From an uncultured Bacteroidales bacterium (GTDB taxonomy: Bacteria > Bacteroidota > Bacteroidia > Bacteroidales > Paludibacteraceae): 38,441 nucleotides of DNA. Location: contig CADBZO010000034.1 of NCBI GenBank assembly GCA_902799185.1, positions 1,078 through 39,518 of the forward strand. Reading direction: 5' to 3'. The position numbers and the translations under genes are program-made. This document shows, piece by piece, positions 885 to 35,948 of this stretch. How positions within the stretch are numbered: the stretch's first letter is position 1; each line of letters starts with the position of its first letter. The notes under the pieces are model-generated. The model made no database searches, was not told the DNA's origin, and was given only the letters and a program-made list of their open reading frames with translations.

Positions 885-986
885 GACCGCTTCGCTGAAG
901 GAGTAAAGACCGCTTCGCTAAAGGAGTAAAGATTAAATAGTTTTGAATAGTCTATTCATTTTTGTCTTTATTCCTTATTCCTTTAG
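885..986 (+). repeat. Two 23-bp tandem units followed by a heptamer array (intergenic copy)
   Basis: Two near-identical 23-bp units at 885-907 and 908-930 (core gaccgcttcgctraaggag) are followed after a gap by three 7-bp units at 966-986 (ctttatt, ccttatt, cctttag). The same arrangement, in the same order and orientation, lies at 28581-28692 where it is translated as the N-terminus of the PotC-like protein. A perfect dyad gaatag-t-ctattc sits between the parts at 945-957. Confidence 0.8.
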
Positions 987-1000
987 CAGGCAGAGCCTGC
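986..1000. repeat. Short palindrome with GGC-AGA-GCC core
   Basis: gcaggc-aga-gcctgc forms a 6-bp stem with a three-base loop just 3' of the minus-strand surface-protein gene. There is no T-run on the minus-strand side, so it is not a convincing intrinsic terminator. It shares its stem-triloop core with palindromes at 14429-14441, 15283-15293, 17394-17404, 17497-17507 and about 17696-17706. Confidence 0.55.
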
Positions 1001-14077: not shown

Positions 14078-14150
14078 TTTCTTGTTGTTTTTAGTTAAAC
14101 ATTTAGTTAGTTATTTTGTTATTTTTCTTTACAGATATAACATTTCGGTG

Positions 14151-14183
14151 CAAAGATACAAAAAAGTTCGCATACGCGCAATA
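14151..14183 (-). promoter_or_regulatory. Bacteroidetes-type promoter for the giant surface-protein operon
   Basis: On the minus strand TATCTTTG (14158-14151) matches the -7 consensus TAnnTTTG exactly. An ATTG at 14183-14180 lies 21 bp upstream as a weak -33 (consensus TTTG). The leader to ATG 14077 would be about 70 nt. Confidence 0.65.
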
Positions 14184-14195
14184 CGTACACGCAAA

Positions 14196-14301
14196 AATTT
14201 ACGTATTGCAAAGTTTTTGGTGCAGAAATTTACGAAGTGCAAAGTTTTTTACCTCCATGTGTCAATTTTTACCCCCGCCATGTGTCAATTTTTACACATG
14301 A
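14196..14301. repeat. Direct repeats and a dyad just upstream of the surface-operon promoter
   Basis: Two 24-bp near-identical units (14196-14219 and 14227-14250, 31-bp spacing, core tgcaaagttttt) are followed by two identical 17-bp units catgtgtcaatttttac at 14257-14273 and 14280-14296 (23-bp spacing). The second of these also forms a perfect 7-bp dyad, catgtgt (14280-14286) with acacatg (14295-14301). The placement immediately upstream of the promoter suggests regulator binding sites, but no regulator can be named. Confidence 0.6.
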
Positions 14302-14594: not shown

Positions 14595-14599
14595 CCATA

Positions 14600-15550
14600 A
14601 ACACAAAAAACAATTTTTATTGGTCCAAAATTACCAAAAATGATCCAAAAATAATTTTCTTTTAGGTCAACAATTAAAGACAATTAAAGACAATTCTTTT
14701 TTTTACATAGGATGCATATTTTTTAATTGTTGGTAATTGTTGATAATTCTTAGCCCTACGGGCACGATCTGCTTCGCCGTATGGTTGACTGATAGAAAAA
14801 TCAGAGGACTTGGAAAATTGTTTTTTATGTTTATGTCCGCAGGCGTTTGTACTCCGTAAGGAGTGTGGATTAGGGCGGTAGGCAAACGGATACGGTGTTT
14901 TATAGGTTTTTTTTCTAAAAAAATTAGTCGACTTTCGACTTTTGTCTTTCTACTCAAGAAAGGTGGGGGTTGCAGGGGTAAAGGACAGGAGAGTGATGTA
15001 CCTGTGACGTACCTGTGACGTAGTTTATATGGTCTAGGTATGGTCTAGGTATCGTCTAGCCCAGTATGCATCCACAGAGGCAATTATATAGAAACTCATT
15101 GCAATCCATAAAACCCCATTGTTACCCATTAAATTAAACAAAAATTATTCTTTCGCTGTCAACAATTATCAACAATTGAAGACAATTCTTTTTCCTTCAG
15201 TCCAAAATTGCCCAAAATGATCCAAAAATTATTCTTTCGAAGTCAACAATGGAATTAAAAATTACGAATTACGAATTAATGACGGCGGAGCCGTGTCCGG
15301 ATAAAATCCGGACGCAATGAACGAAGGAAGGGCTCGCGCAAATATGCGCGAGAAGGGACATAAACCTAAAAAACAGTTTTTTATTCTTTCAGTCCAAAAT
15401 TACCCAAAATGATTCAAAAATTATTCTTTCGCGGTCAACAATTATCAACAATTAAAGACAATTCTTTTTCTTTCAGTCCAAAATTACCCAAAATGATTCA
15501 AAAATGATTCCCATAAAACTCTTCAATTATCATCGCATCGGATTGCCGGA
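14600..15550. repeat. Gene-free stretch of 10-bp and 11-bp periodic repeats
   Basis: No convincing gene lies here. Decamer arrays of the type ccaaaattac/ccaaaatgat/ccaaaaatta occur at about 14622-14655, 15203-15235, 15392-15425 and 15477-15510. Arrays of the type tcaacaatta/tcaacaattg/aagacaattc lie at about 14670-14700, 15160-15190 and 15433-15465. A further decamer array (cattgcaatc, cataaaaccc, cattgttacc) lies at about 15098-15127. Eleven-base units occur as gtacctgtgac (14998-15019, twice) and tatggtctagg (15028-15060, three times, the last diverged). The 11-mers are unusually rich in CTAG and CG/AC steps. Confidence 0.7.
15250..15475 (+). repeat. Hairpin-rich dispersed repeat, copy A
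   Basis: The unit begins with 7-bp repeats (gaattac type, about 15252-15280), then a small hairpin cggc-gga-gccg (15283-15293), a perfect 8-bp stem gtccggataaaatccggac (15295-15313) and a second perfect 8-bp stem ctcgcgca-aata-tgcgcgag (15333-15352). It continues into an A/T-rich tail with the decamer arrays. Related copies lie at 17349-17750, on the other side of the ATPase gene and in the same orientation. Confidence 0.75.
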
Positions 15551-15552
15551 TT

Positions 15553-17348: not shown

Positions 17349-17750
17349 AAATTAAAAATTACGAATTACGAATTACGAATTACGAATTAATGACGGCGGA
17401 GCCGTGTCCGGATAAAATCCGGACGCAATGAACGAAGAAAGGGCTCGCGCAAATATGCGCGAGCGGATACAATCCGCCGGAAACAGACATACAAAACGGC
17501 GGAGCCGTGTCCGGATAAAATCCGGACGCAATGAACGAAGGAAGGGCTCGCGCAAAAATGGGTGAGAAAGGGACATAAACCTAAAAAACAGTTTTTTATT
17601 CTTTTAGTCCAAAATTACCCAAAATGATCCAAAAATTATTCTTTCGCAGTCAACAATGGAATTAAAAATTACGAATTACGAATTACGAATTAATGACGGC
17701 GGAGCCGTGTCCGGATAAAATCCGGACGTAATGAACGAAGGAAGGGACAC
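17349..17750 (+). repeat. Hairpin-rich dispersed repeat, copies B, C and D in tandem
   Basis: A 7-bp array (gaattac type, 17349-17390) leads into copy B (17392-about 17465), followed by copy C (17497-about 17660) and truncated copy D (about 17694-17750). All three keep the perfect stem gtccggataaaatccggac (17406-17424, 17509-17527, 17709-17727). Copy B keeps the ctcgcgca/tgcgcgag stem, copy C has a changed second stem (ctcgcgca with tgggtgag) that still largely pairs through G-T, and copy D lacks it. A further gaattac array (about 17659-17692) precedes copy D. Confidence 0.75.
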
Positions 17751-17777: not shown

Positions 17778-17913
17778 CAATGTACAATGTACAATGTACA
17801 ATTAACAAAGCGTCCTGGTAGGTTTTGTGCAAACTGAAGGGTCCGTACGGGTCTTAAAATGTTGTACCAAACTCCAAAAGCCCTTTGTAAATTGTAAATT
17901 GTACATTGTAAAT
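17778..17913. repeat. Pair of oppositely oriented heptamer arrays
   Basis: Four 7-bp units caatgta/caattaa lie at 17778-17805 and four tgtaaat/tgtacat units at 17886-17913. The unit families are inverse complements, so the two arrays could pair across the intervening 80 bp. The stretch between shows no gene. Confidence 0.7.
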
Positions 17914-17916
17914 TAG

Positions 17917-20132: not shown

Positions 20133-21902
20133 TCACTCATGTGTGATCTCGGGGGCAACCATGCGGAGGAAAGGTTCGGGAAGGGGCAGGCGGTTCGGTC
20201 CGCAGGAGTTGCCGTAGGGATTGCGTTTGAAAGCTCCGTTCTCCTCCTTGCGCTCCTGTCCGTCGAGGAACTTGGTGAAGAGATAGATACCGAGTTTCTG
20301 CCAGTCGGCTACGAGGTTCTCCGCCTGCGCGCACGAATAATCAGTAAGGAACGCGCGCGCGTCCTCCTCATTCATCCCCGCCGCTTCGGCATCCACTCCG
20401 GCGACCTGGGTATTGAACTTGTCATCCCAAGCCTGCTGCAACTCGCGTATATGGGGGTACATACGGCTGTATTTGGTATATGCCCAGTTCGCCACGATAT
20501 TAAACGTCCACCAGGCGGAGGTAGGCGAGAAAGTGTAACTGTCTCCGTTGCCCTCGGCGAAGCACTCCGGCACATGGTTGATACAGGAGTACATCGGCAC
20601 GTAGCAGGAACAAGCGGCGTCGTCCACTCCGAACCAGAAGAGACCGTAGGGTTGGTCATTTCTCATCTGTGCGACGAAAGACCAAGCGGTCTGCTGGGTA
20701 GCCGTAGGACGCTCGTACCAGTACTGCAGGGTATCGGTGCCTTCGGGTGCCAGCTTGAATCCTAAGCCTCCGTAACGCAGTTTGCTGTTCCAAGGGCCTG
20801 CATCGGTGCCTTGGGTGATATCCAGCGGCGTACCTTTGTACTCGTCACGCATACATTCCTTGATATCCTGCACGGACACCTTACGGTCCGGAACGATCCA
20901 CAAAGGCATGTGCTCCCCTTCGGGGAGAATTGAGAATTGAGAATTGAGAATTGAGAGTTGAGAGTGGTTTTCTCTAAAGGTCTTGCCGGTGGCGTAGTCA
21001 AAATATTTATCCATGTCGTTGCTGAAATGGCGGAAGAAGGACCATACGCGTGCCTCGCAGACATAGAGCCCGCTGAAATCGAAGGGGTTATAAGCGGCCT
21101 GGAAGGAGAAGTCCTTGTCCTCGCCGGAGAAGAATCCTTTCTCTTTGGCAAACGCGATGAGGTTTTTGTCCCACATCCAGACATCCCCCATCCCCTTCTC
21201 GGAAGGGGTGACTATCTTACAGTTCAGTTTCTTCTCCAGTCTTTTCTGCTCCTTGGTCAGTCTGGCTTTGGCGTCAAGGGGGAGCGTAGTGATACGGGAC
21301 TGGTTGGCATGGGCGCAGACGGCATTATCCGGCACGCGCACGGCCACCCAGTTGGCGCCTTTCTGTCCGGCACCCTTGCCGATGAGGTCCATCACCCAAA
21401 TCTCGTTCGGGTCACCGATGGAGAACGACTCTCCCTCGGAGGCATATCCGTATTCATTGACCAGCGTGATCATCCATTCGATAGCCTCCCGCGCCGTTTT
21501 GGAGCGCTCCAGAGCGATGTATATCAGACTGCCGTAGTCAATACCGACGGTGTCCCACAGCGCTTCCCGTCCTCCCCAGGTGGTCTCGCCGATGGTAACC
21601 TGGTGCTCGTTCATATTACCCACGACGGTATAGGTATGCGGCACTTGGGGGATGGCGCCTTGCGGGCGTCCGGTGTCCCAGTCCTTGACCTCCCGCATGG
21701 CACCCTCGGGCCAGTCCTGCGCGGGGCTGAAATGCAGGAAACCGTACATGCCGTACGAGTCGGCGGCATAGGAGATGATGGTACTGCCGTCCGCGGAGGC
21801 GTCTTTGCCGACCAGGAAGTTGGTGCAGGCCTTGAGAGTTGAAAGTTGAAAGGTGAAAGGTGAAAGGAGCAGCAGGGCTGCTATTATCGTTGATTTTTTC
21901 AT
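20133..21902 (-). CDS. Secreted C69-family dipeptidase (Ntn-hydrolase fold)
   Basis: The 589-aa product belongs to peptidase family C69, which cleaves dipeptides from an N-terminal Cys nucleophile. That Cys is C26, exposed after removal of residues 1-25, and starts the signature CTNFLVGKDASADGSTIIS. Further family blocks are GETTWGG, IDYGSLIYIALERSKTAREA, SFSIGDPNEIWVMDLIGK and NAVCAHANQSRI. The protein is predicted to be exported. Two heptamer arrays lie inside the gene: one encodes most of the signal peptide just before C26 (21834-21868), the other encodes a Ser/Leu/Asn/Gln-rich 14-residue insert at about 312-326 (20925-20966). The ATG overlaps the stop of the glycogen synthase gene (ATGA, 21899-21902). 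It is the last gene of the operon and probably serves peptide nutrition. Confidence 0.93.
   Translation of the reverse strand: MKKSTIIAALLLLSPFTFQLSTLKACTNFLVGKDASADGSTIISYAADSYGMYGFLHFSPAQDWPEGAMREVKDWDTGRPQGAIPQVPHTYTVVGNMNEHQVTIGETTWGGREALWDTVGIDYGSLIYIALERSKTAREAIEWMITLVNEYGYASEGESFSIGDPNEIWVMDLIGKGAGQKGANWVAVRVPDNAVCAHANQSRITTLPLDAKARLTKEQKRLEKKLNCKIVTPSEKGMGDVWMWDKNLIAFAKEKGFFSGEDKDFSFQAAYNPFDFSGLYVCEARVWSFFRHFSNDMDKYFDYATGKTFRENHSQLSILNSQFSILPEGEHMPLWIVPDRKVSVQDIKECMRDEYKGTPLDITQGTDAGPWNSKLRYGGLGFKLAPEGTDTLQYWYERPTATQQTAWSFVAQMRNDQPYGLFWFGVDDAACSCYVPMYSCINHVPECFAEGNGDSYTFSPTSAWWTFNIVANWAYTKYSRMYPHIRELQQAWDDKFNTQVAGVDAEAAGMNEEDARAFLTDYSCAQAENLVADWQKLGIYLFTKFLDGQERKEENGAFKRNPYGNSCGPNRLPLPEPFLRMVAPEITHE
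20925..20966 (-). repeat. Six 7-bp units inside the C69 peptidase gene
   Basis: gagaatt four times, then gagagtt and gagagtg, 42 bp in all. Because 6 x 7 = 42 is a multiple of three, the frame is preserved and 14 residues are added. Confidence 0.85.
21834..21868 (-). repeat. Five 7-bp units inside the C69 signal peptide
   Basis: gagagtt, gaaagtt, gaaaggt, gaaaggt, gaaagga. On the coding strand they encode residues about 11-23 of the signal peptide (LLSPFTFQLSTL), ending just before the catalytic Cys. Confidence 0.85.
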
Positions 21903-23485
21903 AACAAACGGGGATTTTGGAGTTCTGATAGTCGGATATCTCTTTTTTTCAAGGCAATCTCGTACGCCTTGCGGTAATACTTGAAGAAATGTTTCCAGTC
22001 GGCTTTTTTGGCTACCGCCTCCGCCTCTTTGCGTGCCCGCGCTTTCTCCTCTTTGGACAAGCGGTCAAAACGGAGCAGGTCGTCGGCAATATGCTCCGCC
22101 ACCTCGTTGAAGTTGGAGTCATTGCGGTCAATCACCACCACGCCGTACTGGTCTTTCTGCCTTGCCGCCCATTCCCCGAAGCCGGCGAGGGAGGTGGTGA
22201 TAGTCGGTACATGGAAGGCGCAGGACTCCAGCGGAGTGTAGCCCCACGGCTCGTAGTAAGAGGGGAAGACCGTCACATCCATGCCGATGAGCAGGTCGTA
22301 GTATTTCATGCCGAAGAGCGGATCTTGTCCGTCCAGATAATAAGGTACAAAGACCGCAGAGACTTTGCCTTTTCTCGACGGGGCGCGATCCAGATACGGA
22401 ATCATGACAAACGCCACCACTTCGCGTTCCGGTTGGCCGGAATGGTAAATCTTCTGCGCGAGTTTGTCCAGCGCGGCGGCGAAGACATCTATCCCTTTGT
22501 TTTTCCATTCCTGTCGTCCGGATATAGCCACCAGGAGTGCGTTCTCGGGCACCACTCCGCCGAGCTGCTCTCCGGCTACGCGGCGCAGCGCCTCCCGCGC
22601 CTCCGCCCGTTTCCTGTCAAAAGCCTTGCCTTTGGGCACAAAGGTAGGTTCGAAGCCGTTGGGCGTCTCTATATCCGGCTGTTTGTCCAGCAGCTGCTTG
22701 CACTCGCGGGCGGTGATATAGCTGACGGTAGTGAAGCAGTCGGCATGGTGCGCCGCCTGTTTCTCCACCGAGTGCTTGGAGACCATATTCAGCTCCTGCG
22801 CCATCTGGTCGCCGTTGTAACACTCGAAATAGTCGTAGAGGGGTTTGCCGTTGCCGGCAATAGAACGTCCGATACCGGTAGCATGGGTGGTGAAGAGCGT
22901 AGCTATCTCAGGACAATGGTCCTGCAGGTAGAAGATCGAGAAGGCCGTCTGCCACTCGTTGGCATGGGCGCAGACCGCAGGCACAGCCTGCTGTTTGAGC
23001 GTTTGGGTGTTTGAACGCTTCGCTGTTTGAGCGGTTTTGTCTGTCAGAAAGTGATACAGGCTCTCCATGGCCACCCCTGCGGCATAGCCGAAGAGGCATG
23101 ACTCGTCATAGTCGCCATAGGCGGCATGGCTCTGGACTTGGAATTTCTCCCACGCCCAACCGTAAATCTCATTCTTGCGCGCCCAGAGAGCGTCGAACTT
23201 CAGCAGTATGGCTATCGGTTCGCCCGGCACCTGCCAGCGGCCTATACGTATAGACGAAAGACCGCTCTGCTCCAAGTCGAAAGCCGAAAGCCAGTCCTTC
23301 AGGAGCGACTGGTCCTCCTTGAAATAGATGTCACTATGGTCTCCGAAATCGGGACCGAAGAAAAACACTTTGTCGGGGTGCTCGGCTTGCATGGAAGCCG
23401 CCCTTGTGCTTAATACCGCATAGATACCGCCCACGCGGTTGCAGACCTCCCAGGAGGTCTCAAAGATATAATCGGGTTGATTCAT
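21899..23485 (-). CDS. Glycogen synthase, GT3 (animal/fungal-type) family
   Basis: The 528-aa protein elongates alpha-1,4-glucan from a nucleotide sugar in the cytoplasm. It opens with ETSWEVCNRVGGIYAVLSTRA, the donor-binding Gly-rich start of GT3 enzymes. Further blocks are CAHANEWQTAFSIFYLQ, TTHATGIGRSIAGNG and KQAAHHADCFTTVSYITA. The C-terminal SYYEPWGYTPLESCAFHVP carries the catalytic E-x7-E-like region and is followed by TTSLAGFG. Bacteroidetes use this GT3 form rather than bacterial GlgA in many genomes. Residues about 148-164 are an insert encoded by six 8-bp units (22993-23040), placed before the conserved CAHANEW block. Start and stop overlap both neighbours by ATGA, so translation is coupled with the PKD lipoprotein upstream and the C69 peptidase downstream. 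Confidence 0.92.
   Translation of the reverse strand: MNQPDYIFETSWEVCNRVGGIYAVLSTRAASMQAEHPDKVFFFGPDFGDHSDIYFKEDQSLLKDWLSAFDLEQSGLSSIRIGRWQVPGEPIAILLKFDALWARKNEIYGWAWEKFQVQSHAAYGDYDESCLFGYAAGVAMESLYHFLTDKTAQTAKRSNTQTLKQQAVPAVCAHANEWQTAFSIFYLQDHCPEIATLFTTHATGIGRSIAGNGKPLYDYFECYNGDQMAQELNMVSKHSVEKQAAHHADCFTTVSYITARECKQLLDKQPDIETPNGFEPTFVPKGKAFDRKRAEAREALRRVAGEQLGGVVPENALLVAISGRQEWKNKGIDVFAAALDKLAQKIYHSGQPEREVVAFVMIPYLDRAPSRKGKVSAVFVPYYLDGQDPLFGMKYYDLLIGMDVTVFPSYYEPWGYTPLESCAFHVPTITTSLAGFGEWAARQKDQYGVVVIDRNDSNFNEVAEHIADDLLRFDRLSKEEKARARKEAEAVAKKADWKHFFKYYRKAYEIALKKRDIRLSELQNPRLL
22993..23040 (-). repeat. Six 8-bp units inside the glycogen synthase gene
   Basis: gtttgagc, gtttgggt, gtttgaac, gcttcgct, gtttgagc and ggttttgt, 48 bp in all, add 16 residues rich in Lys, Gln, Thr and Asn without shifting the frame. 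Confidence 0.8.
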
Positions 23486-26241: not shown

Positions 26242-27729
26242 ATGGGAAAAAATCCGTTTATCATTGAGGTGAACCATGTCTCAAAGCGTTTTGAGGATGG
26301 CAAGTATGCCCTCAACGACGTAAGCCTTCAAGTGAAGAAGGGAGAGTTCGTCACTATTCTTGGCCCTTCGGGCTGCGGTAAAACAACCCTGCTGCGCTGC
26401 ATAGCGGGCTTCCAGGTAGCCAGTTCCGGCGACATCCTGCTCAAAGGGGAGGATGTAACGAAGACGCCTCCCTACGAGCGCCCCGTGAACACGGTATTCC
26501 AGAAATACGCGTTGTTTCCGCATCTGAATGTATTCAACAATGTAGCCTTCGGTTTGAAGCTGAAAAAGATAGCGCCCGACGTGATCAAGAAGAAAGTGCG
26601 GCGCGCGCTGAAGATGGCGAACATGACGGGTTACGAGGAGCGCAAAGTCGATACCCTGAGTGGCGGTCAGCAGCAACGCGTAGCCATCGCCCGCGCCATC
26701 GTCAACGAGCCGGAAGTGCTGCTGCTGGACGAACCGCTGAGTGCACTCGACCTGAAGATGCGGCACGACATGCAGATCGAGCTCAAAGAGCTGCACGAGA
26801 AACTCGGTATCACCTTTATCTACGTGACCCACGACCAGGAGGAGGCGTTGACGCTGAGCGATCGCGTGGTAGTGATGAACGAAGGGAAAATCAAACAAAT
26901 CGGTACTCCGACAGATATATACAACGAACCGCAGAACTGCTTCGTAGCCGATTTCATCGGCGAGAGCAACATCCTCTCGGGCCGGATGATCCGCGACCGC
27001 AAGGTACAGTTCCTGGGACTGGAGTTCGATTGTATCGACGAAGGCTTCGGCGAAGACGTACCCGTCGATGTAGTCATCCGACCGGAAGATATCTACCTCT
27101 GGAAAGTCGAAAGTCAAAAGTCGAAAGTCGAAAGCGATAAGGGTCCCGATGCCGCCTCGCAGGCTGATCTGGACGAGGAGGACAGGGTGCCGAAAGGCAA
27201 GTTCACCAAATGGTACGGGACCGTACAGAGCTGTATCTTCAAGGGCGTGCATTACGAGATGCGCGTGCTGACACCCGACGGCTACGAGTTTCTCATCCAG
27301 GACTATCATGAGTTCCTGCCGGGCACGGAAGTGGGTATGCTCGTCAAGCCCGAAGATATCCAGATTGTCAAGAAAGAGCACTATATCTACAATTATTTTG
27401 ACGGCGAGATCACCAAGAACGGCAAAGTGCGTTTCATTGATGCCGAATGGGAAGTGATGCCGCAACAGATAGAAGGCTTCGAGCCGGGCGAGAAGGTGCA
27501 GGTCCGCGTGCCTTTCCGTTCCATCGACCTGCAGGACTACGAAGAGGAAGGCACGCTCTCCGGAGAAGTGCATTTCATCCTCTACAAGGGCAACCACTAC
27601 CACCTGACCATCCGCACCGACGAAGGCCATGATATCTACGTCAACACCAATGACGTGTGGGACGACGGCGATCGCGTAGGTATCGTCATTCCGGCGAAAG
27701 AGATATTAATCAGCAAAGCTGATAATTGA
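26242..27729 (+). CDS. potA: Spermidine/putrescine ABC transporter ATP-binding protein
   Basis: PotA powers polyamine import on the cytoplasmic face. The 495-aa protein has Walker [10 protein letters not shown] (41-49), Q-loop Q87, the signature LSGGQ (139-143), Walker B VLLLDEP (159-165) and the H-loop His 197. It is longer than the usual 350-380 aa because the C-terminal regulatory part holds additional TOBE-like segments ([18 protein letters not shown], then [19 protein letters not shown]). Bacteroidetes homologues also tend to be long. Residues about 287-298 are encoded by a 7-bp repeat array (27102-27136), a Lys/Ser/Glu-rich linker between the first TOBE strands. It is the first gene of potABCD, and its stop lies within the repeat array that separates it from potB. 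Confidence 0.96.
27102..27136 (+). repeat. Five 7-bp units inside potA
   Basis: gaaagtc, gaaagtc, aaaagtc, gaaagtc, gaaagcg (35 bp) encode the linker [15 protein letters not shown] and keep the frame open. Confidence 0.85.
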
Positions 27730-27783
27730 CAATTGAGAATTGAGAATTGACAATTGAGAATTGAGAATTGAGAATTGACAATT
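27721..27783 (+). repeat. Nine 7-bp units between potA and potB
   Basis: The units are gataatt, gacaatt or gagaatt throughout. The array includes the potA stop codon and ends directly at the potB ATG, filling the whole intercistronic gap. Confidence 0.88.
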
Positions 27784-28578
27784 ATGAGTAAAGTGATTCA
27801 GATATTTTCAAGCCGCCGGACATGGGCATGGCCGTATGTGCTGTTCATGCTGCTATTCGTGGTGCTGCCGCTGATTCTGGTAGGTTACTACGCTCTCACG
27901 GACATCAACGGGCAGTTCACGCTACGTAATTTCGCGAAGTTCTTTACGCATAGCGAGGCTATCCAGACTTTTCTCTATTCAGTCATGATAGCGGTGTTCA
28001 ACACCGTGATATGTCTGCTGGTGGGTTATCCGGCGGCGTACGTCATGGCGCAGGAGGATTTCAAGACACCCAAAGTGATGGCCATGCTGTTTATCCTGCC
28101 GATGTGGATCAATTTCCTGCTGCGGACGGTAGCGACGGTAGAACTGTTCAACATGCTGGGGCTGCCGTTAGGCGAAGGGGCATTACTCTTCGGATTATGC
28201 TATGACTATCTGCCGTTTATGATCTACCCTATTTACAACACGCTGCAGAAGATGGACTACTCTCTGGTGGAAGCGGCGCAGGACTTAGGAGCCAACCGGT
28301 GGCAGAGTTTCTGGAAAGTCATCGTGCCCCTCTCCATGCCCGGTGTGTATAGCGGCGTGGTAATGGTGTTCATGCCGACTGTCTCCACCTTCGCCATCGC
28401 AGAGCTGCTGACGCATAACAACATCAAACTGTTCGGCAGCCTCATCCAGGACTATATCACCACGACCGACCTGCTGAACTACGGCGCCGTGCTGAGCCTC
28501 GTGCTGCTGATTATCATCGGTCTCACGTCGTTCTTCGGCGACAATGACTCCGAAGGAGAGAAAGGAGGGATGGTATGA
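27784..28578 (+). CDS. potB: Spermidine/putrescine ABC transporter permease PotB
   Basis: The 264-aa inner-membrane permease has about six transmembrane segments, starting with YVLFMLLFVVLPLILVGYYA. The permease coupling (EAA) loop is EAAQDLGANRWQSFWKVIVP at about residue 160. I chose ATG 27784 (MSKVIQIFSSRRTW) rather than a TTG nine bases upstream, which lies in the repeat array. The stop overlaps the potC start (ATGA, 28575-28578). With PotC it forms the membrane channel for polyamines delivered by PotD. Confidence 0.95.
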   Translation: MSKVIQIFSSRRTWAWPYVLFMLLFVVLPLILVGYYALTDINGQFTLRNFAKFFTHSEAIQTFLYSVMIAVFNTVICLLVGYPAAYVMAQEDFKTPKVMAMLFILPMWINFLLRTVATVELFNMLGLPLGEGALLFGLCYDYLPFMIYPIYNTLQKMDYSLVEAAQDLGANRWQSFWKVIVPLSMPGVYSGVVMVFMPTVSTFAIAELLTHNNIKLFGSLIQDYITTTDLLNYGAVLSLVLLIIIGLTSFFGDNDSEGEKGGMV

Positions 28579-29981
28579 TAGACCGCTTCGCTAAAAGAGT
28601 AAAGACCGCTACGCTAAAGGAACAAAGACAAGTTACTATCGGCCGATACATATTTGTCCTTATTCTTTATTCCTTATTCTTTATTCCTCTTTCCGCCCAG
28701 TCGAACCTGACGTTCGACCTGAAGGTCGGTGCAACGGGCAAAGTAGCGGTATTGACGGATTTCCCGGAGAGCTACTCCGGCGAAAAAGTAAATATCCGAA
28801 TAGGAGAAATAGTTGAACCGGATAAACTGGAAAAACCGGATGAAATAGACTTCATCTTCTCCTCCCTTGAGCAGAGGCCGGGAGGGTTTTCCGGCTTCAG
28901 CGAGGTCTATCGCTTCACGGAGGACGGAACGGAATGGACAGTATGGCGGAACAAGAAAGAGATCAAGAACCGCGCTCAGCGTGTGCTGGTGAACAATGCC
29001 TATAACGCCTTCGAGAAGTACCTGCACGAGGCCACCGAGAGCCGGCGCAGCTACGGCTGGATATGGTTTGTGTTCGCCGGACTGATGCTTCTGGGAGCCT
29101 CCATCTATGGCGGCTACGTCTTTATCGAGCGGCGCAAGGAGAGAGAGCTGAGCGCGGTAGAACAAGAGACACTCCGCCGCAAAAGGATGGGCAAAAGACG
29201 GCATTATATCTCGCAGGCCTACCTATGGCTGCTGTTGGTCGTGCTGTACGCTCCGATTGCCTTGATAGCCGTCTTCTCGTTTACGAAGAGCAAGGTGCTG
29301 GGCAACTGGACGGGCTTCTCGCTCGATCTGTACGCCAACCTCTTTACGGGTCAGGCGGACGCGGGTCTGAACAGCGCCATCTGGTACACGGTGGTCATCG
29401 CGCTCATCGCGGCGGTCAGCTCCACCATCCTCGGTACACTCGCCGCCATCGGTATCTATAACATGCGTGCCCGCAGCAGAAAGGTGGTCAGTTTCCTGAA
29501 TTCCGTGCCGATGATCAACCCGGATATCATCACGGGTATATCTCTCTTTCTGCTGTTCGTGGCGTTAGGTATGAGCCAAGGTCTCGCAACCGTGTGCATC
29601 GCCCATGTGGTGTTCTGTACGCCATACGTGGTATTGAGTGTGCTTCCCCGTCTGAGCCGGATGAATCCCAACACGTATGAAGCAGCGCTGGATTTAGGTG
29701 CTACGCCGGCGCAGGCACTCAGGATGGTGATGCTGCCGGAGTTATGGCCGGGCATGCTGAGCGGCTTCATCCTCGCGCTGACGCTCTCCGTGGATGATTT
29801 CGGCGTGACGTTTTTCACCAAAGGTTCGGGAGGTCTGGAGACACTATCCACCTTTATCTACTCGGACGCGCGCAAAGGCGGTCTGACACCGGAGTTGAGA
29901 CCGCTGTTCAGCATCATACTATTAGTCATGCTAAGTGTACTGATATATATTAATTTCAAAAACAAAAAAGAAGAAAAATGA
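28575..29981 (+). CDS. potC: PotC-type permease fused to an N-terminal exported domain
   Basis: Residues about 205-468 are a complete PotC permease of normal length (about 264 aa): AYLWLLLVVLYAPIALIAVF starts it, and the EAA loop is EAALDLGATPAQALRMVMLP. In front is a 204-residue extension in the same frame. Residues 1-20 are encoded by the 23-bp tandem repeats. About 24-42 form a signal-peptide-like hydrophobic stretch (YIFVLILYSLFFIPLSAQS) encoded by heptamers. About 43-158 are soluble and presumably periplasmic (for example YRFTEDGTEWTVWRNKKEIK), and about 160-182 is a transmembrane helix followed by a basic/acidic cytoplasmic linker. I know no standard domain for the soluble part. An internal start near MGKRRHYISQ (residue 205) would give an ordinary PotC, but the extension is open, overlaps potB by ATGA and looks protein-like throughout. 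The potD start overlaps the stop. Confidence 0.9.
   Translation: MIDRFAKRVKTATLKEQRQVTIGRYIFVLILYSLFFIPLSAQSNLTFDLKVGATGKVAVLTDFPESYSGEKVNIRIGEIVEPDKLEKPDEIDFIFSSLEQRPGGFSGFSEVYRFTEDGTEWTVWRNKKEIKNRAQRVLVNNAYNAFEKYLHEATESRRSYGWIWFVFAGLMLLGASIYGGYVFIERRKERELSAVEQETLRRKRMGKRRHYISQAYLWLLLVVLYAPIALIAVFSFTKSKVLGNWTGFSLDLYANLFTGQADAGLNSAIWYTVVIALIAAVSSTILGTLAAIGIYNMRARSRKVVSFLNSVPMINPDIITGISLFLLFVALGMSQGLATVCIAHVVFCTPYVVLSVLPRLSRMNPNTYEAALDLGATPAQALRMVMLPELWPGMLSGFILALTLSVDDFGVTFFTKGSGGLETLSTFIYSDARKGGLTPELRPLFSIILLVMLSVLIYINFKNKKEEK
28581..28692 (+). repeat. Two 23-bp units plus heptamer array at the start of potC
   Basis: Units 28581-28603 and 28604-28626 match those at 885-930. Five 7-bp units ccttatt/ctttatt/cctcttt follow at 28658-28692. 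The DNA between and around the heptamers (ttactatc, then acat and tttgtcct) is shared with the start of the outer-membrane protein gene at 34226-34277. Confidence 0.8.
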
Positions 29982-31228
29982 AAAAAACAATCTTTGGTAC
30001 TTTGTACCTTGTGGCTTTGTCCCTTATCATGGTTTCCTGTGGCGGTTCCGACCGTGCTCACCAACTCAAAGTGCTGAACTGGGCGGACTACATTGACGAG
30101 GACGTGAAGACGAACTTCGAGCAGTGGTACTACGACCAGACCGGCGAGAAAGTGCAGCTGGTGTATGAGACCTTCGACATCAACGAGACAGCACTCACCA
30201 AGATTGAGGTGGGGCATGAGGACTATGATGTGTTCTGCCCGTCGGAGTATATCATCGAGCGCATGCTCAAGAAAGGGCTGGTACAGCCGATCCAGAAAGA
30301 ACTGATCGCTGACTCCATCTATTATTTCGACAACATCTCCCCGTTCGTGACGGAGAAGTTCCAGCAGATGGCGCCTTCTGCGGATATCCAAGTGAGTGAC
30401 TACACCGTAGGCTACATGTGGGGAACGACCGGCTTTATCTACAACCCGCAGTTTGTGAACAGCGAGGATTTGCAGAGCTGGGCCGCCGTACTGAATCCGA
30501 AGTTCGAGAATCGCATCCTGATGAAAGACGCTTTCCGCGATGTCTATTCCGTACTGGTACTGTACGCATATGCGGACGCTATCGAGCGCGGCGAGGTGAG
30601 CCGCGACGAGTTGGTGCACGACATCACTCCGGAGCGTGTAGCAGCCGTGAAGGATATACTCCTGAAAGCTAAGAAACAGATATGCGGATGGGAGGTTGAC
30701 TTCGGCAAAGAGGAGATGACCAAAGGCAAAGCATGGCTCAACCTGTCCTGGTCCGGCGACGCACAGTTCGCTATCGAGGAGGCAGCCGAGATGGGCGTGA
30801 TGCTCGATTATATCGTTCCGCAAGAGGGTTCTAACGTATGGTTCGATGGATGGGTAATCCCGAAATACGCCAAGAACGTGAAAGCCGCCACCTATTTTAT
30901 CGACTATATGTGCCGCGCGGACAATGCGCTGGCTAACATGGACGAGATAGGTTATGTATCCTGCGCAGGCGGACCGAACGCCGCAGCTACGATACTGGAG
31001 GAGCAGAACGACGACGAGGAATGGCCCGAGACCGTAGATGCTTCCTATTTCTTCGGCGATGAGGCTATCGAAGTAGACGGCGAGATGCTTGACCCGCACG
31101 CACTGCACCTCAACCCGGTTTACTACGCCGACAAGAGCATCATCGACCGTTGTGCACTGATGCACGACGCCGGCGAGAGCCAGGAGATGCTACTGGAGAT
31201 GTGGAATGAAATCAAACTCGCACGGTGA
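29978..31228 (+). CDS. potD: Spermidine/putrescine-binding lipoprotein PotD
   Basis: The 416-aa solute-binding lipoprotein captures polyamines outside the inner membrane. The signal peptide ends at the lipobox LIMVSC with the acylated Cys at 21. The mature part begins with LKVLNWADYIDEDVKTNFEQ, the classic PotD/PotF opening, followed by YDVFCPSEYIIERMLKKGL, VGYMWGTTGFIYN and WFDGWVIPKYAKN. At DNA level the signal peptide region (29994-30028) is a degenerate 7-bp array. The start overlaps potC by ATGA. A 51-bp gap filled with another 7-bp array separates it from the TPR gene. Confidence 0.96.
   Translation: MKKTIFGTLYLVALSLIMVSCGGSDRAHQLKVLNWADYIDEDVKTNFEQWYYDQTGEKVQLVYETFDINETALTKIEVGHEDYDVFCPSEYIIERMLKKGLVQPIQKELIADSIYYFDNISPFVTEKFQQMAPSADIQVSDYTVGYMWGTTGFIYNPQFVNSEDLQSWAAVLNPKFENRILMKDAFRDVYSVLVLYAYADAIERGEVSRDELVHDITPERVAAVKDILLKAKKQICGWEVDFGKEEMTKGKAWLNLSWSGDAQFAIEEAAEMGVMLDYIVPQEGSNVWFDGWVIPKYAKNVKAATYFIDYMCRADNALANMDEIGYVSCAGGPNAAATILEEQNDDEEWPETVDASYFFGDEAIEVDGEMLDPHALHLNPVYYADKSIIDRCALMHDAGESQEMLLEMWNEIKLAR
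29994..30028 (+). repeat. Five degenerate 7-bp units inside the PotD signal peptide
   Basis: ttggtac, tttgtac, cttgtgg, ctttgtc, ccttatc. They encode FGTLYLVALSLI, the hydrophobic core. Confidence 0.6.
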
Positions 31229-31276
31229 GAGTTAAGAATTAAAAATTAAGAATTAAGAATTCAAAATTCAAAATTC
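31228..31276 (+). repeat. Seven 7-bp units between potD and the TPR gene
   Basis: Units of the type agaatta, aaaatta and aaaattc fill nearly the entire gap, starting inside the potD stop codon. A looser 8-bp periodicity (cattacga, cattacgt, aattacca) continues at about 31279-31310 in the TPR signal peptide. Confidence 0.85.
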
Positions 31277-31279
31277 GTT

Positions 31280-34216
31280 ATGATGTCATTACGACATTAC
31301 GTAATTACCATTGCTCTGGCTCTATGCGCGGTAGTCGGTTATGCCCAGACGAGCGAGATGGAGACGCGCTACAACGCTTTGGCGGCTCGTTTTGAGGGAC
31401 GGGACAAGCTGTTGCAGCGCGATCTCAAGGCGTACCTGCAAGCCTACCCCTACACGACTTTTACCAATGAGGTGAATTTCATGCAGGGGGTTCTGCAGGT
31501 AGAGAAAGGACATTACAAACAGAGTCTCAAGCTCTTGGAGCAGGTAGAGGCGAAAGCGCTGACGCGTCCTCACCAGACCGATTACTCGTTCTATCGCGGC
31601 TACGCCTACCTCATGATGCAGGACTACCAACGGGCGGCTGTCTATTTCGGGCAGTTATCGAAGTCCGAGAACCGGTACACCACCCGCGGCAGGTATTACT
31701 ACGCCTATTGCCGCTATCAGCAGGGCAAGTACGACGAGGCGCTGCCGGCACTCCTGCAACTGGAGGACAACGCCGCTTATAGCAAGACCGTCCCGTACTA
31801 TATCGTACAGATCTACTACACCCAAAAGAACTACGAAGAAGTAAGCTCGCGTGCCGAGAAACTCCTTCGCGATTATCCGGAGGCTCCGAATAACACAGAG
31901 CTGCACCGTATTTTAGGCGAGATCTATTACGCGAAGAAAGAATACGCATCCGCCAAGACACATCTTCGCCAGTACCGCGATACCACAACGGCATTGAAAG
32001 AGCCGCTTATCCGAACGGACATGTATATGCTCGGTCAGGCGGAGTATGAGACGGGCGAGTACGAGGCGGCTGTCAAATCGCTCAAACAGGTGAAGCAGGA
32101 GAAAGACTCCGTCTCGGAGTCCGCGTGCCTGACGATGGGTAACGCCTACCTGCAGCTACACCAGCCGGAGCAAGCCAAACTGTCCTTCCAGGCCGCAGCG
32201 AACTACAACCTGACACCTGTTATCACAGAGGAGGCGGCATATAACTATGCCTTATGTACCTATCAGAGTTCCAGTGCTTTAGGCGAATCGGTAACGGCTT
32301 TTAACGACTTCCTTCACCGTTTTCCCAATTCCCGATACGAGAGCCGTATCTACCAGCTCCTGAGTTCCGCTTTGATGCAGAGCAAGAACTACGCCGCAGC
32401 CATCAGCGTGCTGGATTCGATTGACAACCCCACGCCTAAGATGCTGCAGACCAAGCAGTATCTGCGCTACCAGCTGGGCGCGGACCATTTCCTGCAGGGC
32501 AAGATGCCGCAATCGGTGGAATGGATGACAGAGGTCATCAACCACGCCGGCGAATCCGACCTCTATACGACCGAGGCTTACTACGTACGGGCGGAGGCAA
32601 ACTACCGGCTGCGCAACTATCCCGCTACGGAGCAGGACCTGAGATCCTTCTTCAGCCGCCCGGATGCACGGCAGTCAAGCAACTACGCCGTCGCCCGTTA
32701 CCTGGAAGGCTACTGCTCTTTCGCGCAAGCCAAATATAATGACGCGCGCGAAGCGTTCACCACCTATATTGACGCCGCAGTGGCGACCGATCCTACCTAT
32801 GCTGACGCGCTCAACCGCATCGGCGACTGCTATTTCAATGCCCGCCAGTTCACTCAGGCCATCTCGTATTACAGCCAAGTGAGCCATCTGCAGGCCTTGG
32901 GAGCCGACTATGCCCTTTTCCAGAAAGGCTATGCGCTCGGCCTGCAGCACCAGTACGCCGGGAAGATAGAGGTGCTGCGCGACCTGCTCAAGCGCTATCC
33001 CAAATCGGATTACGCGGATGACGGCATCTATGAGACTGCACGCGCCCAACTCCAGATGGACGACGAGCGCGGCGCTATCGAGACGTACGACCGCCTGCTG
33101 GAAGCATTCCCCCATTCGGCGCTGGCACGCAAGGGCTCTCTGGAGCGCGCAATGCTCTATCGCAACCTCCATGAGAACGAACAGGCTATTGCCGCTTACC
33201 GCAGGACGATAGAGAAATATCCCGCGACGGAGGAAGCCTACACCGCCCTGGAGGCCTTGCAGGCGCTCTATGTAGAGACCGGAAGGGTGAATGACTACAT
33301 GGCTTACACCAAGGAGCTGGCGAAACTCAACATGACCGTCTCCACGCCGGAGGACAGCCTCCTCTACGCCGCAGCGGAGATGCAGTACATGCAGGCGGAT
33401 TACCAGAAGGCGGCGCTCACGCTGACCAATTACCTCACGCGTTTCTGCGCCGGAGGGCGGTACTGCACCACAGCCCGCTACTACCAGGCGGACTCCTATT
33501 ACCGTCTGGGCAAGACCACGGAGGCGTTGGAGTCCTACCGTATCCTGGCTGAGACCGATGCCAACCCCTATCAGGAGGAGGCTGCCACCCGCGTAGCGGA
33601 GATATGCTTCGACAAGGAGGACTACAACTGCGCTCTGGAGGCTTTCTACCGCATGCATGCGCTGGCTTCTACCGCCGAGAACACCGCCGTAGCACGGCTG
33701 GGTATCTTACGCTGCTCACAACGGCTGGGACGCCACCAGGCTACCATCGACATTGCGGAGCAGATACTGAATGACAAACCGCTCCCGGAGGAGACCAAGA
33801 CAGAGGCGCTCTACTGCCGCGCCAAGGCTTATATAGCCATGGGTAACCCGGCCAAAGCCCGCCCCGACCTCATGCTCCTCGCATCCGACGTACGCACCGC
33901 ACAAGGCGCAGAGGCAAAATACCTGCTCGCACAGAGCTATTACGAAGCAAAGGAGTTGGATCAGGCGGAAGAGGAGGTGATGCAGTTCACCCGGATGAAC
34001 ACCCGCCAGCAATACTGGCTGGCCCGCGCACTGATCCTCTTGAGCGACATCAACCGCTCCCGCGGAGAGCTCTTCCAGGCACGCCAGTACCTGCTCGTCC
34101 TGCAGCAGAACTATACGCTCTCCGGCGATGATATTTCCACCCTCATTGCCCAGCGCCTCGCCGAACTGGATGAGATGGAGAAACCTATAGAAAAGGAGGT
34201 AGAAGATGAAGACTAA
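31280..34216 (+). CDS. Large exported tetratricopeptide-repeat protein
   Basis: The 978-aa protein has a signal peptide (MMSLRHYVITIALALCAVVGYAQ) and then TPR-type helix pairs over nearly its whole length, for example YYYAYCRYQQGKYDEALPAL, GNAYLQLHQPEQAKLSFQAA, DALNRIGDCYFNARQFTQAI and RAKAYIAMGNPAKARPDL. It ends in an acidic tail (VEDED). Periplasmic or outer-membrane-associated TPR proteins act as assembly scaffolds. It overlaps the next gene, an outer-membrane beta-barrel, by 11 bp, so the two products are made together and probably work together. Whether it has any link to polyamine uptake is unclear; it may simply share the transcript. Confidence 0.92.
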   Translation: MMSLRHYVITIALALCAVVGYAQTSEMETRYNALAARFEGRDKLLQRDLKAYLQAYPYTTFTNEVNFMQGVLQVEKGHYKQSLKLLEQVEAKALTRPHQTDYSFYRGYAYLMMQDYQRAAVYFGQLSKSENRYTTRGRYYYAYCRYQQGKYDEALPALLQLEDNAAYSKTVPYYIVQIYYTQKNYEEVSSRAEKLLRDYPEAPNNTELHRILGEIYYAKKEYASAKTHLRQYRDTTTALKEPLIRTDMYMLGQAEYETGEYEAAVKSLKQVKQEKDSVSESACLTMGNAYLQLHQPEQAKLSFQAAANYNLTPVITEEAAYNYALCTYQSSSALGESVTAFNDFLHRFPNSRYESRIYQLLSSALMQSKNYAAAISVLDSIDNPTPKMLQTKQYLRYQLGADHFLQGKMPQSVEWMTEVINHAGESDLYTTEAYYVRAEANYRLRNYPATEQDLRSFFSRPDARQSSNYAVARYLEGYCSFAQAKYNDAREAFTTYIDAAVATDPTYADALNRIGDCYFNARQFTQAISYYSQVSHLQALGADYALFQKGYALGLQHQYAGKIEVLRDLLKRYPKSDYADDGIYETARAQLQMDDERGAIETYDRLLEAFPHSALARKGSLERAMLYRNLHENEQAIAAYRRTIEKYPATEEAYTALEALQALYVETGRVNDYMAYTKELAKLNMTVSTPEDSLLYAAAEMQYMQADYQKAALTLTNYLTRFCAGGRYCTTARYYQADSYYRLGKTTEALESYRILAETDANPYQEEAATRVAEICFDKEDYNCALEAFYRMHALASTAENTAVARLGILRCSQRLGRHQATIDIAEQILNDKPLPEETKTEALYCRAKAYIAMGNPAKARPDLMLLASDVRTAQGAEAKYLLAQSYYEAKELDQAEEEVMQFTRMNTRQQYWLARALILLSDINRSRGELFQARQYLLVLQQNYTLSGDDISTLIAQRLAELDEMEKPIEKEVEDED

Positions 34217-35948
34217 CAGACGAATTACTATCAGCAAACACATTTTTGTCCTGACTCTTTATTCCTTATTCCTTACTCCTGTAAATGCGCAGCAGGATAG
34301 TGCCCTGAACCGTTCCGTGACGGTGGAGCGTGATTTCCAGCCGGTGATTCAGTCGGCGGGCAAGATATCCACCAAGCCGGCAGTCGTAGAGACAACGCTC
34401 GAACCGGCTCCCGTAGAGTACTCCGCTTATACGGCCTCCCTCACCCCCGAAGGAAGCGTCCGGCCGATGCTCTCGCAGCCTACGCGTTTCACGCCCGGCA
34501 CACCGTTCAACGGCTATGTACGCGGAGGGCTGGGACATCCGCAGACGCTCTTCGATTTCGGATACCATCTGGATGACGGCAAACGCTCCATCCTCGATGT
34601 CTATGCGCATCACAAGGGCGACTGGTGCCACGCGCTGATGCTCAGCAAGACGAAAGCGGGGCTGGATTTCACCCATACTTTCGCTACCTGCGACCTCTAT
34701 TTCGGCGTCAACGGCGGGAATATCTACTACCACCGTTACGGAGACCTCTACAGCTCCTCGCTGCCTAAGAACTCCACGACCCTCTGGACCGCAGAGGTGT
34801 ACATGGGCGTGAAGGCGAATGCGCGGCAGGAGGTGCAGTATCTCTTCCAGACGGGCTATGCGCTCTTCACCAAACCCGGTGCCGTAAGCGAGCACCAGAT
34901 TCGTACCAAGGGTTTCTTCGACTGGCATACCGACATCCACCATGTGGGGGCAAACCTCTATGTGCAGAACAACTTCATGCAGCTGGGTTCGCTGGCGGAT
35001 GTCATCGCCCCCTCGCAATACAACAGCCGGCATAACATCCGTCTGGAGCCGTATTATGCGCTGGAGGGACGGAGAGTGCAACTGCATGTAGGAGTGAATA
35101 TAGATATGAATATCGGCTGCGGCAAGATGCTCTCCGGCTCGGACAACATCTCCTTTGCCCCTTCGCCCCACGTCCATTTCGAGGCGCAGCTCGCCAAACA
35201 ATGGATGACGCTCTACGCCGATGTGACGGGCTTCCACGGCATGGGCAACCTGCAGGAGTTCATGGAGACCAACCGCTACCGCTATATCCAGGCGGGTATC
35301 ACCGAGCACCACGCTGCAGCATACACGCCAGTGGATGCGGAGTTGGGATTTCATATCCGCCCGTACCGCGACCTGATGATCGAGCTCCACGGAGGTTTCG
35401 CAAGGTTGAACAACCAGGAGGTGCTGTTGGCGGACGGGACAGGCAGTTTCGACTTCCTCTATGCCGATTACAACCGCGGCAAGGTAGGCGGTCAGATCAA
35501 CTACCACTACCGCGACTACGTACGCGTGAACCTCAACGGCGATTATTTCATCTGGGGTGGCAAGACGCCCGTCTATGACCGCGCGGCCTGGGAACTGGGC
35601 CTGCGTATCGACGGACGGATAGACAAACACTGGTCGCTTTTCTCGGACAACCGTTTCAGCGGTTCCCGCAAGGCACTGGCATGGGACGCAGCTACCAACG
35701 CATATACCGAGCACACCCTCAAACCGATGATTGATTTGGATTTAGGAGTTCAGTATGAGATGTGGGTAGGCAGAAAGATGAACGGTGAAAGGAAGAAGGA
35801 TGAAGGAACTCTTCTTGCGCCGGAACCGCAGCCGAACCTCGTCCTTTTTGCGCAACTGGAGAATTTCATCCATCGCAAGAACGAGATCTACTATGGCTTC
35901 CATCACCACGGGATAGGTTTCCTCATCGGAGCCACTTTCCGTTTCTGA
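34206..35948 (+). CDS. Outer membrane beta-barrel protein (TonB-receptor-like)
   Basis: The 580-aa protein has a signal peptide (about 1-28, ending TPVNAQ) of which the hydrophobic core is encoded by 7-bp units (34250-34277). A short periplasmic lead follows (SVTVERDFQPVIQSAGKI, with proline-rich APVEYSAYT). From about residue 95 there are repeating beta strands such as GYVRGGLGHPQTLFDFGYHL and QINYHYRDYVRVNLNGDYF. It ends in GFLIGATFRF with a terminal Phe, the usual barrel-assembly signal. No plug domain or TonB box is evident, so receptor annotation should be cautious. It is translationally linked to the upstream TPR gene. Its 3' end overlaps the convergent gene by 26 bp. Confidence 0.88.
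   Translation: MKTNRRITISKHIFVLTLYSLFLTPVNAQQDSALNRSVTVERDFQPVIQSAGKISTKPAVVETTLEPAPVEYSAYTASLTPEGSVRPMLSQPTRFTPGTPFNGYVRGGLGHPQTLFDFGYHLDDGKRSILDVYAHHKGDWCHALMLSKTKAGLDFTHTFATCDLYFGVNGGNIYYHRYGDLYSSSLPKNSTTLWTAEVYMGVKANARQEVQYLFQTGYALFTKPGAVSEHQIRTKGFFDWHTDIHHVGANLYVQNNFMQLGSLADVIAPSQYNSRHNIRLEPYYALEGRRVQLHVGVNIDMNIGCGKMLSGSDNISFAPSPHVHFEAQLAKQWMTLYADVTGFHGMGNLQEFMETNRYRYIQAGITEHHAAAYTPVDAELGFHIRPYRDLMIELHGGFARLNNQEVLLADGTGSFDFLYADYNRGKVGGQINYHYRDYVRVNLNGDYFIWGGKTPVYDRAAWELGLRIDGRIDKHWSLFSDNRFSGSRKALAWDAATNAYTEHTLKPMIDLDLGVQYEMWVGRKMNGERKKDEGTLLAPEPQPNLVLFAQLENFIHRKNEIYYGFHHHGIGFLIGATFRF
34250..34277 (+). repeat. Four 7-bp units inside an outer-membrane protein signal peptide
   Basis: cctgact, ctttatt, ccttatt, ccttact. 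The unit family is the same as in the potC start at 28658-28692 and in the intergenic copy at 966-986. Confidence 0.75.

Follow-up and report, generated by a model that had tools for sequence, protein, structure and literature searches.

Tandem heptamers of cyanobacteria, which Mazel is said to have described in 1990 as STRR sequences, reportedly have units other than those found in this work. Heptameric repeats in bacteria, their patchy spread and a slippage hypothesis for them are already published (PMC4679880, PMC4692102). Both cite the work of Mrazek (2007) on prokaryotic long simple sequence repeats (LSSRs), in which heptanucleotides are the commonest and slippage is proposed; the second also mentions Calothrix heptamers. 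The heptamers GGGAATC and GGGGAYT of Xanthomonas and Nostoc show a preference for four units, which coincides with the requirement for a quadruplex (Rehm et al. 2015, PMC4692102), and TAACTGA repeats are described from marine Beggiatoaceae, some cyanobacteria and five Bacteroidetes (MacGregor 2015, PMC4679880). A survey of 117,861 genomes reports a high repeat density in Bacteroidota (PMC12699852). Why bacterial arrays so often have 7-bp units in four copies is left open in these sources. Here, we analyse arrays of this kind in a 38,441-nt stretch (the window; contig CADBZO010000034.1, positions 1,078 to 39,518, assembly GCA_902799185.1) of an uncultured Bacteroidales bacterium. The question is testable in this genus, where arrays are abundant, reach into leuS and miaA and in some cases differ between ∼95%-identical species. 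We conclude that short array patches have probably been copied to new sites and changed later by slippage and allele exchange.

The genome, a rumen Paludibacteraceae-type metagenome-assembled genome (MAG), comprises 55 contigs totalling 2.43 Mb, with a completeness of 86.7%. The nearest named loci belong to MAGs titled Bacteroidales or Paludibacteraceae bacterium, many of ruminant origin, and the closest relative is RUG12032 (L101), with 98% identity in an ABC ATPase and 89.5% identity over the aligned parts of the locus DNA. Runs of at least 12 matches at a lag of 7 nt were found 10 times in the window, whereas 20 dinucleotide-shuffled sequences contained no such run, whatever the period tested (up to 40). 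A tolerant scan (score of at least 11) gave 13 arrays in the window, and 73 arrays were present in 400 kb sampled from five other contigs of the genome (∼18 per 100 kb), arrays with a non-primitive unit being left out of the counts. The commonest period class was 7 with its multiples; the second, with periods 9, 18, 27 and 36, is taken to be putative coding repeats. Allowing up to two mismatches, AATTGAGAATTGAGAATTGA matched the genome 167 times, overlapping registers of one array being counted apart, while the same letters written backwards gave no match. Across 80 loci of congeners (1.49 Mb; score of at least 9, orthologous arrays counted once per locus) there were 319 arrays, against 6 in the shuffled control. 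The excess of period 7 over shuffled sequence and the presence of arrays elsewhere in the genome, both named as checks in a preliminary description of the window, therefore hold.

Array density varied. In 20-kb stretches of 20 congeners, 22 arrays were found in 8 of the 19 readable stretches, seven of them in a single 19-kb stretch of G034. Two sister genera had no arrays in 80 kb. Among 13 readable stretches from other genera of the order, 4 contained arrays (8 in all), and three of these four had been preselected as array-bearing. Four stretches reading as N (L270, L278, L280, L285) were dropped. An AATTGAG 20-mer was found in 17 of 295 genomes of the order, with 63 matches in the genome studied here and 36 in G199. 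The reversed letters used as a control themselves form arrays in three genomes (56, 30 and 22 matches), so other lineages use other units.

The units of the 86 arrays in the sample and the window were CAATNNN (27), CAA[ACG]NNN (21), AATTAMR type (17), AGGTGAA (5), AGTCRAA (4) and others (12), and look like one cloud. Each locus had been thought to have its own unit, which is true only in part: the arrays at 15253, 17349 and 17660 share AATTACG within one longer repeat, which runs on into GACGGCGGAGCCGTGTCCGGATAAAATCCGGACG; those at 20925 and 27720 share AATTGAG; and those at 28660 and 34259 share the TTATTCC type. Slippage would be expected to give a steady fall of abundance with length, yet the congener arrays peaked at 30–32 bp (92 of 319), with 43 at 27–29 bp, 40 at 33–35 bp and 8 at 36–38 bp. 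In an untargeted set of 348 arrays (score of at least 12), 158 were nearest to four units, and AATTGAG arrays in 26 viral stretches were most often 32 bp long (8 of 39; the search required 25 bp). Four G- or C-runs were present in only 3 of the 348 arrays, thus the preference for four units needs no G-tracts.

The present arrays resemble the Xanthomonas and Nostoc repeats in being heptameric, in occurring genome-wide at many loci and in preferring four units. They differ in lacking the G-tract in each unit of those G-rich repeats, in the verbatim dispersal of one array type and in coding for signal peptides. That four units prevail here even where G-tracts are lacking speaks against quadruplex formation, the link proposed for those two genera, as the general cause. 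With the TAACTGA repeats (PMC4679880), the arrays share heptameric direct repetition, a frequent position before start codons, patchiness across phyla and occasional absence from the matching gap of a close relative. Those repeats have a single unit, whereas TAACTGA was not among the tallied units of the 73 arrays of our genome sample; a short TAACTGA run lies within one congener array (L170:3741).

One family, AGTCRAA, shows the verbatim copying of a ready-made array. Four consecutive AGTCRAA units were found in 20 of 41 genomes of the genus (this one included), at 161 places, and the reversed letters never. Writing the unit order CGA-CAA-CGA-CGA as GAGG, the orders among the 150 places listed of the 161 were GAGG 44, GGGG 33, GGAG 21, AGGG 6 and GGGA 5. 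For the six genomes with at least 14 listed places, the orders with one CAA were GAGG 36 and GGAG 13, with 3 and 5 for the other two; this gives a chi-square of 48 assuming independent places, although independence is incomplete, because registers overlap and a few flanks are duplicated. Point mutation and slippage have no reason to favour GAGG over its mirror GGAG. The ABC ATPase linker array of the window contains, at 27105–27134, the uneven 30-mer AGTCGAAAGTCAAAAGTCGAAAGTCGAAAG, and exact copies of this 30-mer stand at 28 sites whose 40-bp flanks are unrelated (the limit for flank similarity was passed by 3 of 3000 random flank pairs). The right-end phase ...GAAAG is common to 44 of 48 AGTC arrays. 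Since 16 of the stretches were fetched around 30-mer matches, the 30-mer site, end-phase and 28-site counts come from an enriched set. By comparison, in 29 viral stretches with an AGTCRAA-type unit (17 distinct sites by their flanks), GAGG did not occur and 28 of the 29 arrays were uniform. It had been argued that differing units exclude a spreading sequence; this is unsound, both because one exact heterogeneous array stands at 28 unrelated sites and because three window arrays sit in one longer dispersed repeat. We infer that most other array families spread in the same way as the AGTC family.

Copying into leuS was accompanied by loss of host sequence. Of 30 leuS loci, 5 did not match the reading pattern and were left out. 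The 36-residue form (e.g. WAWDEKNRKVVDKSLIDNKTVFPLELCTMPG) was found in 22 of the 25 readable congener segments, while in G335 the segment has 37 residues and one copy of the 30-mer stands where DKSLIDNKTVF stands in others. This is one clear case of an array that replaced ancestral codons. Two congeners have a module of another repeat family here (45 residues), one has 37 residues and no array, and G336, which shares 96.3% identity with G335 in the ATPase locus, has a shortened segment. A 2.9-kb query found only dispersed short repeats in G341, and no orthologous gene.

A wider comparison took in 223 arrays from the 80 loci and the matching part of the window, excluding arrays longer than 60 bp or within 120 bp of a locus end from the scoring of array against no array. 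An anchored relative was available for 120 of them and an array-free one for 72. The median net change in these 72 comparisons was +12 bp, with 54 being multiples of three. As the arrays themselves are ∼30 bp long, most comparisons are therefore of one stretch standing for another, and the clean presence or absence between relatives that had been expected gives way mostly to swaps. Replacement of a host segment by a short ectopic copy is thus seen in leuS as one clear case, with mixed results in the 72 comparisons.

Orthologous sites also exchange one array for another. At site 20925, L101 has ATTTGAG in all units where the window has mainly AATTGAG with AGTTGAG in the last two, and at the ATPase/permease junction AATTGAG/C in the window corresponds to AGTCRAA in L101. 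L117 and L122 (96.3% identical over aligned parts) have different arrays at this junction, and L150 and L154 (95.5%) differ in two signal peptides by a CCTAGG-type 9-bp stretch versus a 7-/8-bp one, one side in each case being judged by eye. Among the five closest congener pairs, 23 anchored array sites were classified by hand, 9 as swapped and 3 as different in length. Allele types at the junction are shared between L116 and L101 (AGTC), L119 and L126 (ATCAGC), and L120 and L103 (ACTAGT). Close relatives can thus carry different types and remote ones the same, a pattern that suggests exchange of alleles in addition to the making of new arrays.

The position of the 86 arrays relative to genes was assessed with a crude open reading frame (ORF) caller and compared with random placement. 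Arrays overlapped gene ends in 28 cases (33%, random 4%), lay within 60 bp before a start in 8 (9%, random 1%) and in other gaps in 14 (16%, random 10%), but were inside coding sequence in only 30 (35%, random 73%). The first 30 codons accounted for 5 (6%, random 7%) and the last 15 codons for 1. A pyrimidine-rich array strand codes for hydrophobic residues and a purine-rich strand for lysine and arginine. Arrays in the window code for the hydrophobic cores of MIDRFAKRVKTATLKEQRQVTIGRYIFVLILYSLFFIPLSAQS, MKTNRRITISKHIFVLTLYSLFLTPVNAQ and MKKSTIIAALLLLSPFTFQLSTLKAC, the signal peptides being judged by eye, and the CTGTCAA array in miaA is in frame as the likely MiaA N-terminus (..LSTINCQLSNRKTLVLLLGPTGVGKT, TTG start). 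Raw counts of congeners with a 7-, 8- or 9-bp array, taken with no random control over stretches including 15 bp of flank on each side, were 27 of 33 anchored congeners at the permease N-terminus (28580–28692; 28 allele clusters), 35 of 56 at the TPR junction plus signal (31228–31345; 45 clusters), 40 of 55 at the signal of ORF 34206 (48 clusters) and 41 of 79 at the ATPase/permease junction, compared with just 9 of 80 at the ATPase linker and 9 of 72 at a lipoprotein signal.

That a common process spreads short arrays in gaps and genes, as first proposed in the preliminary description, is supported by the genome-wide excess, the seemingly related units, the preferred length of ∼30 bp and the existence of orthologous sites with and without arrays. 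In the form that we prefer, a pre-made patch of ∼30 bp, about four 7-bp units, would be copied to a new place and displace host sequence. Its units would afterwards alter by point mutation and slippage, and whole array alleles would be exchanged between related species. Selection would keep patches where nearly any peptide or spacer serves, such as gene junctions, linkers, N-termini and signal peptides. As a first guess, the machinery could be short single strands annealing at replication forks or breaks, that is, short-patch illegitimate recombination; as a second, a HUH/REP-type transposase could work on array-ended palindromes. In short-patch double illegitimate recombination (SPDIR), which Harms et al. 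are said to have described in 2016, short segments are reportedly replaced by ectopic copies joined at microhomologies, leaving variable ends. SPDIR resembles the present case in that ectopic copies take over host segments, but not in the ends, which are fixed in the 30-mer.

Several observations weigh against the copying of patches as a general account. Verbatim copying is evident in the AGTC family only: among the 348 untargeted arrays the AGTC 24-mer, with only six unrelated sites, was the sole heterogeneous 24-mer to reach four. A further 34 uniform 24-mers recur at four or more unrelated sites, but there copying and slippage are indistinguishable. (A permutation control on unit order, with 12 observed against 5–8, was unclean in that orthologous copies were permuted separately, and is not relied on.) The fixed ends of the 30-mer are not expected from random short-patch annealing, and the ends of other families are less fixed. 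In the genome studied here, array length has its maximum at the same value but is more spread out (30–32 bp in 20 of 112 arrays, 36–38 bp in 8). In the comparisons with array-free relatives, 15 of 72 gain at least 25 bp, compatible with insertion, and in 22 the net change is a loss; some events are common to related loci, and linkers can vary from other causes too. Neither a donor locus nor an enzyme for array copying was found. RVT_1 (PF00078) is present in 10 of 41 genomes of the genus, with one in the array-rich G015, but it was not found in the present genome (86.7% complete) or in the array-rich G001, G007, G009, G022 and G029, and a reverse-transcriptase source is thus disfavoured. Finally, turnover is not universal, as 7 of the 23 anchored sites are identical and 4 differ by substitutions only; the window differs by 14 bp in unit number from L101 at 31228 and by 14 bp from L061 at 21832; and its copies of one longer repeat contain two, three or four AATTACG units.

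These last three points are shared by in situ slippage, the best placed of the alternatives, though in our view an unlikely one. Here, arrays would grow from chance seeds whenever the polymerase slips, and its footprint would favour 7 nt, an idea of Mrazek's as cited in PMC4679880 and PMC4692102. The dominance of period 7 and the uniformity of the viral AGTC arrays also fit, and, like the LSSRs, the arrays are tandem copies beyond chance with heptamers prevalent. However, slippage does not lead to the congener length peak with few longer arrays, to a heterogeneous array with a fixed right end at 28 unrelated sites, to an array in place of conserved leuS codons, or to units that look related. 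The dispersal of the heterogeneous array, the leuS replacement, the signal-peptide use and the shared right-end phase equally set the arrays apart from LSSRs, and slippage alone fits poorly.

A less probable alternative, to which we give little credence, is that the arrays are terminal iterons of palindromic mobile elements, with lost elements leaving solo arrays, perhaps through a RAYT-like HUH transposase. Positions 17778–17914 of the window are one of 27 genome places of an imperfect palindrome of ∼135 bp with inverted 7-bp array ends, (NNNCAAT)n on the left and (ATTGNNN)n on the right, NNN varying between copies. CAATNNN being the commonest array class and the existence of shorter versions of the element agree with this origin, as does the presence of RAYT-like proteins in the genus. 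But the ends of the element hold only 6 of the 86 arrays, and the element was found with strict filters in 4 of 61 genomes, two of them (G022, G015) with short versions only, and once in the 80 congener loci (L103), arrays being far more widespread. As a general source of arrays it was therefore rejected; given the few arrays at its ends, the element is a user of arrays rather than their explanation. The RNA fold of the element has 15 predicted pairs, none with both sides changed, and Rfam gave no match up to E 0.5 in window positions 14000–18800. A second hairpin element, with the hairpin between AATAATCGTG and CTAAGAATTA, lies beside AATTACG or ATTG arrays in L087 (11932–12000) and L338.

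Repetitive extragenic palindromic (REP) elements are short dispersed palindromes with RAYT transposases. In the genus, Y1_Tnp matches were found in 17 of 41 genomes, 13 of them above the cut-off, with no match in the array-rich G001, G015 and G029. By eye, 14 of 15 translated Y1_Tnp loci (13 genomes, this one included) form one family with HUH and tyrosine motifs, mostly of ∼330–400 residues, and all four of these RAYT-like proteins that were scanned match REP_Tyr_transpos (NCBIfam) below its cut-off. The protein of the present genome (G000:C8:82703-83830; L311:2204-3328) has ∼375 residues, the motifs PDHLHV and YVHDNPRR and an extra C-terminal half; it matches REP_Tyr_transpos with E 1.9e-14 and 53.8 bits, under the cut-off of 80, and Y1_Tnp (G000:C8:83003-83284) with 24.1 bits in one scan and 22.3 in another (cut-off 23). 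RAYT-like HUH proteins thus recall the REP/RAYT system, but unlike in that system the gene here is not flanked by heptamer arrays, with none within 350 bp, and a RAYT transposase as the mover of arrays is a lead only. A CGGGCATCCGCCCGGG hairpin stands on both sides of this gene in inverted orientation, and the palindrome CCGAATAGTATTCGG or a near form, a candidate REP partner, lies in or beside the RAYT-like genes of L313 and L322.

Allele exchange as the only process, with homologous recombination among rumen congeners reshuffling standing array alleles, is very unlikely: it accounts for swaps at one site and for the ATPase/permease junction, at which distant species share an allele type and near species differ, but not for the same array at 28 different sites or for the origin of the arrays. 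Chance, composition or assembly artefact can practically be dismissed, as nothing beyond the A+T-rich units speaks for it, chance and composition were rejected by the shuffle controls, and arrays are present in 80 loci from several assembly projects (RUG, RGIG, UBA, metaWRAP bins).

The arrays and associated features of the window are listed below. Of 15 loci with 7-bp periodicity given in the preliminary description, the tolerant scan recovered 12, and it added the array at 17660–17692 that had been missed. The array placed at 966–986 is weak (score 32 in Tandem Repeats Finder, TRF), and neither TRF (score 30) nor the scan detected those placed at 19174–19201 and 29994–30028. At 22993, the 8-bp array is likewise weak, with 73% matches and a score of 32 in TRF, or 78% and 60 as a 16-bp unit, and the 10- and 11-bp arrays were found by TRF but are short.

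Arrays and associated features of the window (the arrays at 20925, 21832, 25378 and 27720, with an empty method cell, come from the tolerant scan)
Feature	Position	Strand	Method
Two copies of 23-bp module GACCGCTTCGCTAAAGGAGTAAA	885..932	+	TRF
TTATTCC, 2.3 copies, weak	968..983	+	TRF
AATTACG array, 2 pure units, in longer dispersed repeat	15253..15278	+	scan
AATTACG array, 4 pure units, in same longer repeat as 15253 array	17349..17389	+	scan
AATTACG array, 3 pure units, in same longer repeat as 15253 array	17660..17692	+	scan
CAATGTA array, left end of ∼135-bp palindromic element	17778..17802	+	scan
Core of palindromic element, ACAAAGCG...CCCTTTGT, 27 genome places	17803..17884	+	
ATTGTAA/ATTGTAC array, right (inverted) end of ∼135-bp palindromic element	17885..17914	+	scan
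AATTGAG array (final two units AGTTGAG) in peptidase C69 gene 20133-21902 (-)	20925..20965	-	
AGTTGAA/AGGTGAA array coding likely signal-peptide core MKKSTIIAALLLLSPFTFQLSTLKAC of C69 peptidase	21832..21867	-	
Weak 8/16-bp array in glycogen synthase gene	22990..23033	-	TRF, Pfam
CTGTCAA array, end of PRiA4_ORF3-like gene / start of miaA	25378..25421	-	
AGTCRAA array in ABC ATPase linker	27102..27134	+	scan, Pfam
AATTGAG/AATTGAC array, ATPase/permease junction, directly before permease ATG	27720..27783	+	
23-bp module pair coding basic N-terminal stretch of permease ORF 28575-29981	28580..28629	+	TRF
TTATTCY array coding hydrophobic stretch FVLILYSLFFIPLSAQS of permease ORF 28575-29981	28660..28686	+	scan
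AATTAAR/AATTCAA array between substrate-binding-protein gene and TPR gene	31228..31276	+	scan, Pfam
TTATTCC array coding likely signal-peptide core FVLTLYSLFLTPVNAQ of ORF 34206-35948	34259..34280	+	scan

Other repeats were also noted. By eye, the modules at 885–932 and a TTATTCC run at 966–1008 are the left and right arms of an inverted repeat. GACCGCTNCGCT modules of 23 to 27 bp, often paired, lie in genes and gaps (885–932, 28580–28629 and 18686–18741), with 16 matches in 438 kb of this genome and 65 in 1.49 Mb of congeners. A dense patchwork of 10- and 11-bp arrays and the words TCCAAAATNANCC and TCAACAATTA occupies 14600–15620 and recurs near 17590–17660. Arrays of period 11 were seen at L116:9530-9630, L153:7270 and L141:9716, and this period recurs in stretches of many congeners, some without 7-bp arrays. 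A 240-bp coding tandem repeat lies at 2268–2866 in a gene with MBG_2 and Por secretion-tail domains. In the ATPase linker (site 27102), congener loci such as L063, L064 and L065 have CCCCTCCCC..AAGGGAGGG-like palindromes where other species carry arrays.

No report of verbatim array dispersal, of replacement or of signal-peptide use was found in a literature search that left subscription journals mostly uncovered. If copying and replacement are true, the arrays are not merely hypermutable tracts, and short repeat patches would supply proteins with new segments, most notably signal peptides. A more far-reaching reading, which we put forward only tentatively, is that the genus has an active process, with a length rule of ∼30 bp (four 7-bp units), that writes ready arrays over host DNA, that this rule underlies the heptamers of other phyla and that new protein segments result. 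Under such an active process, new signal peptides, linkers, N-termini and spacers would arise within the divergence of sister species.

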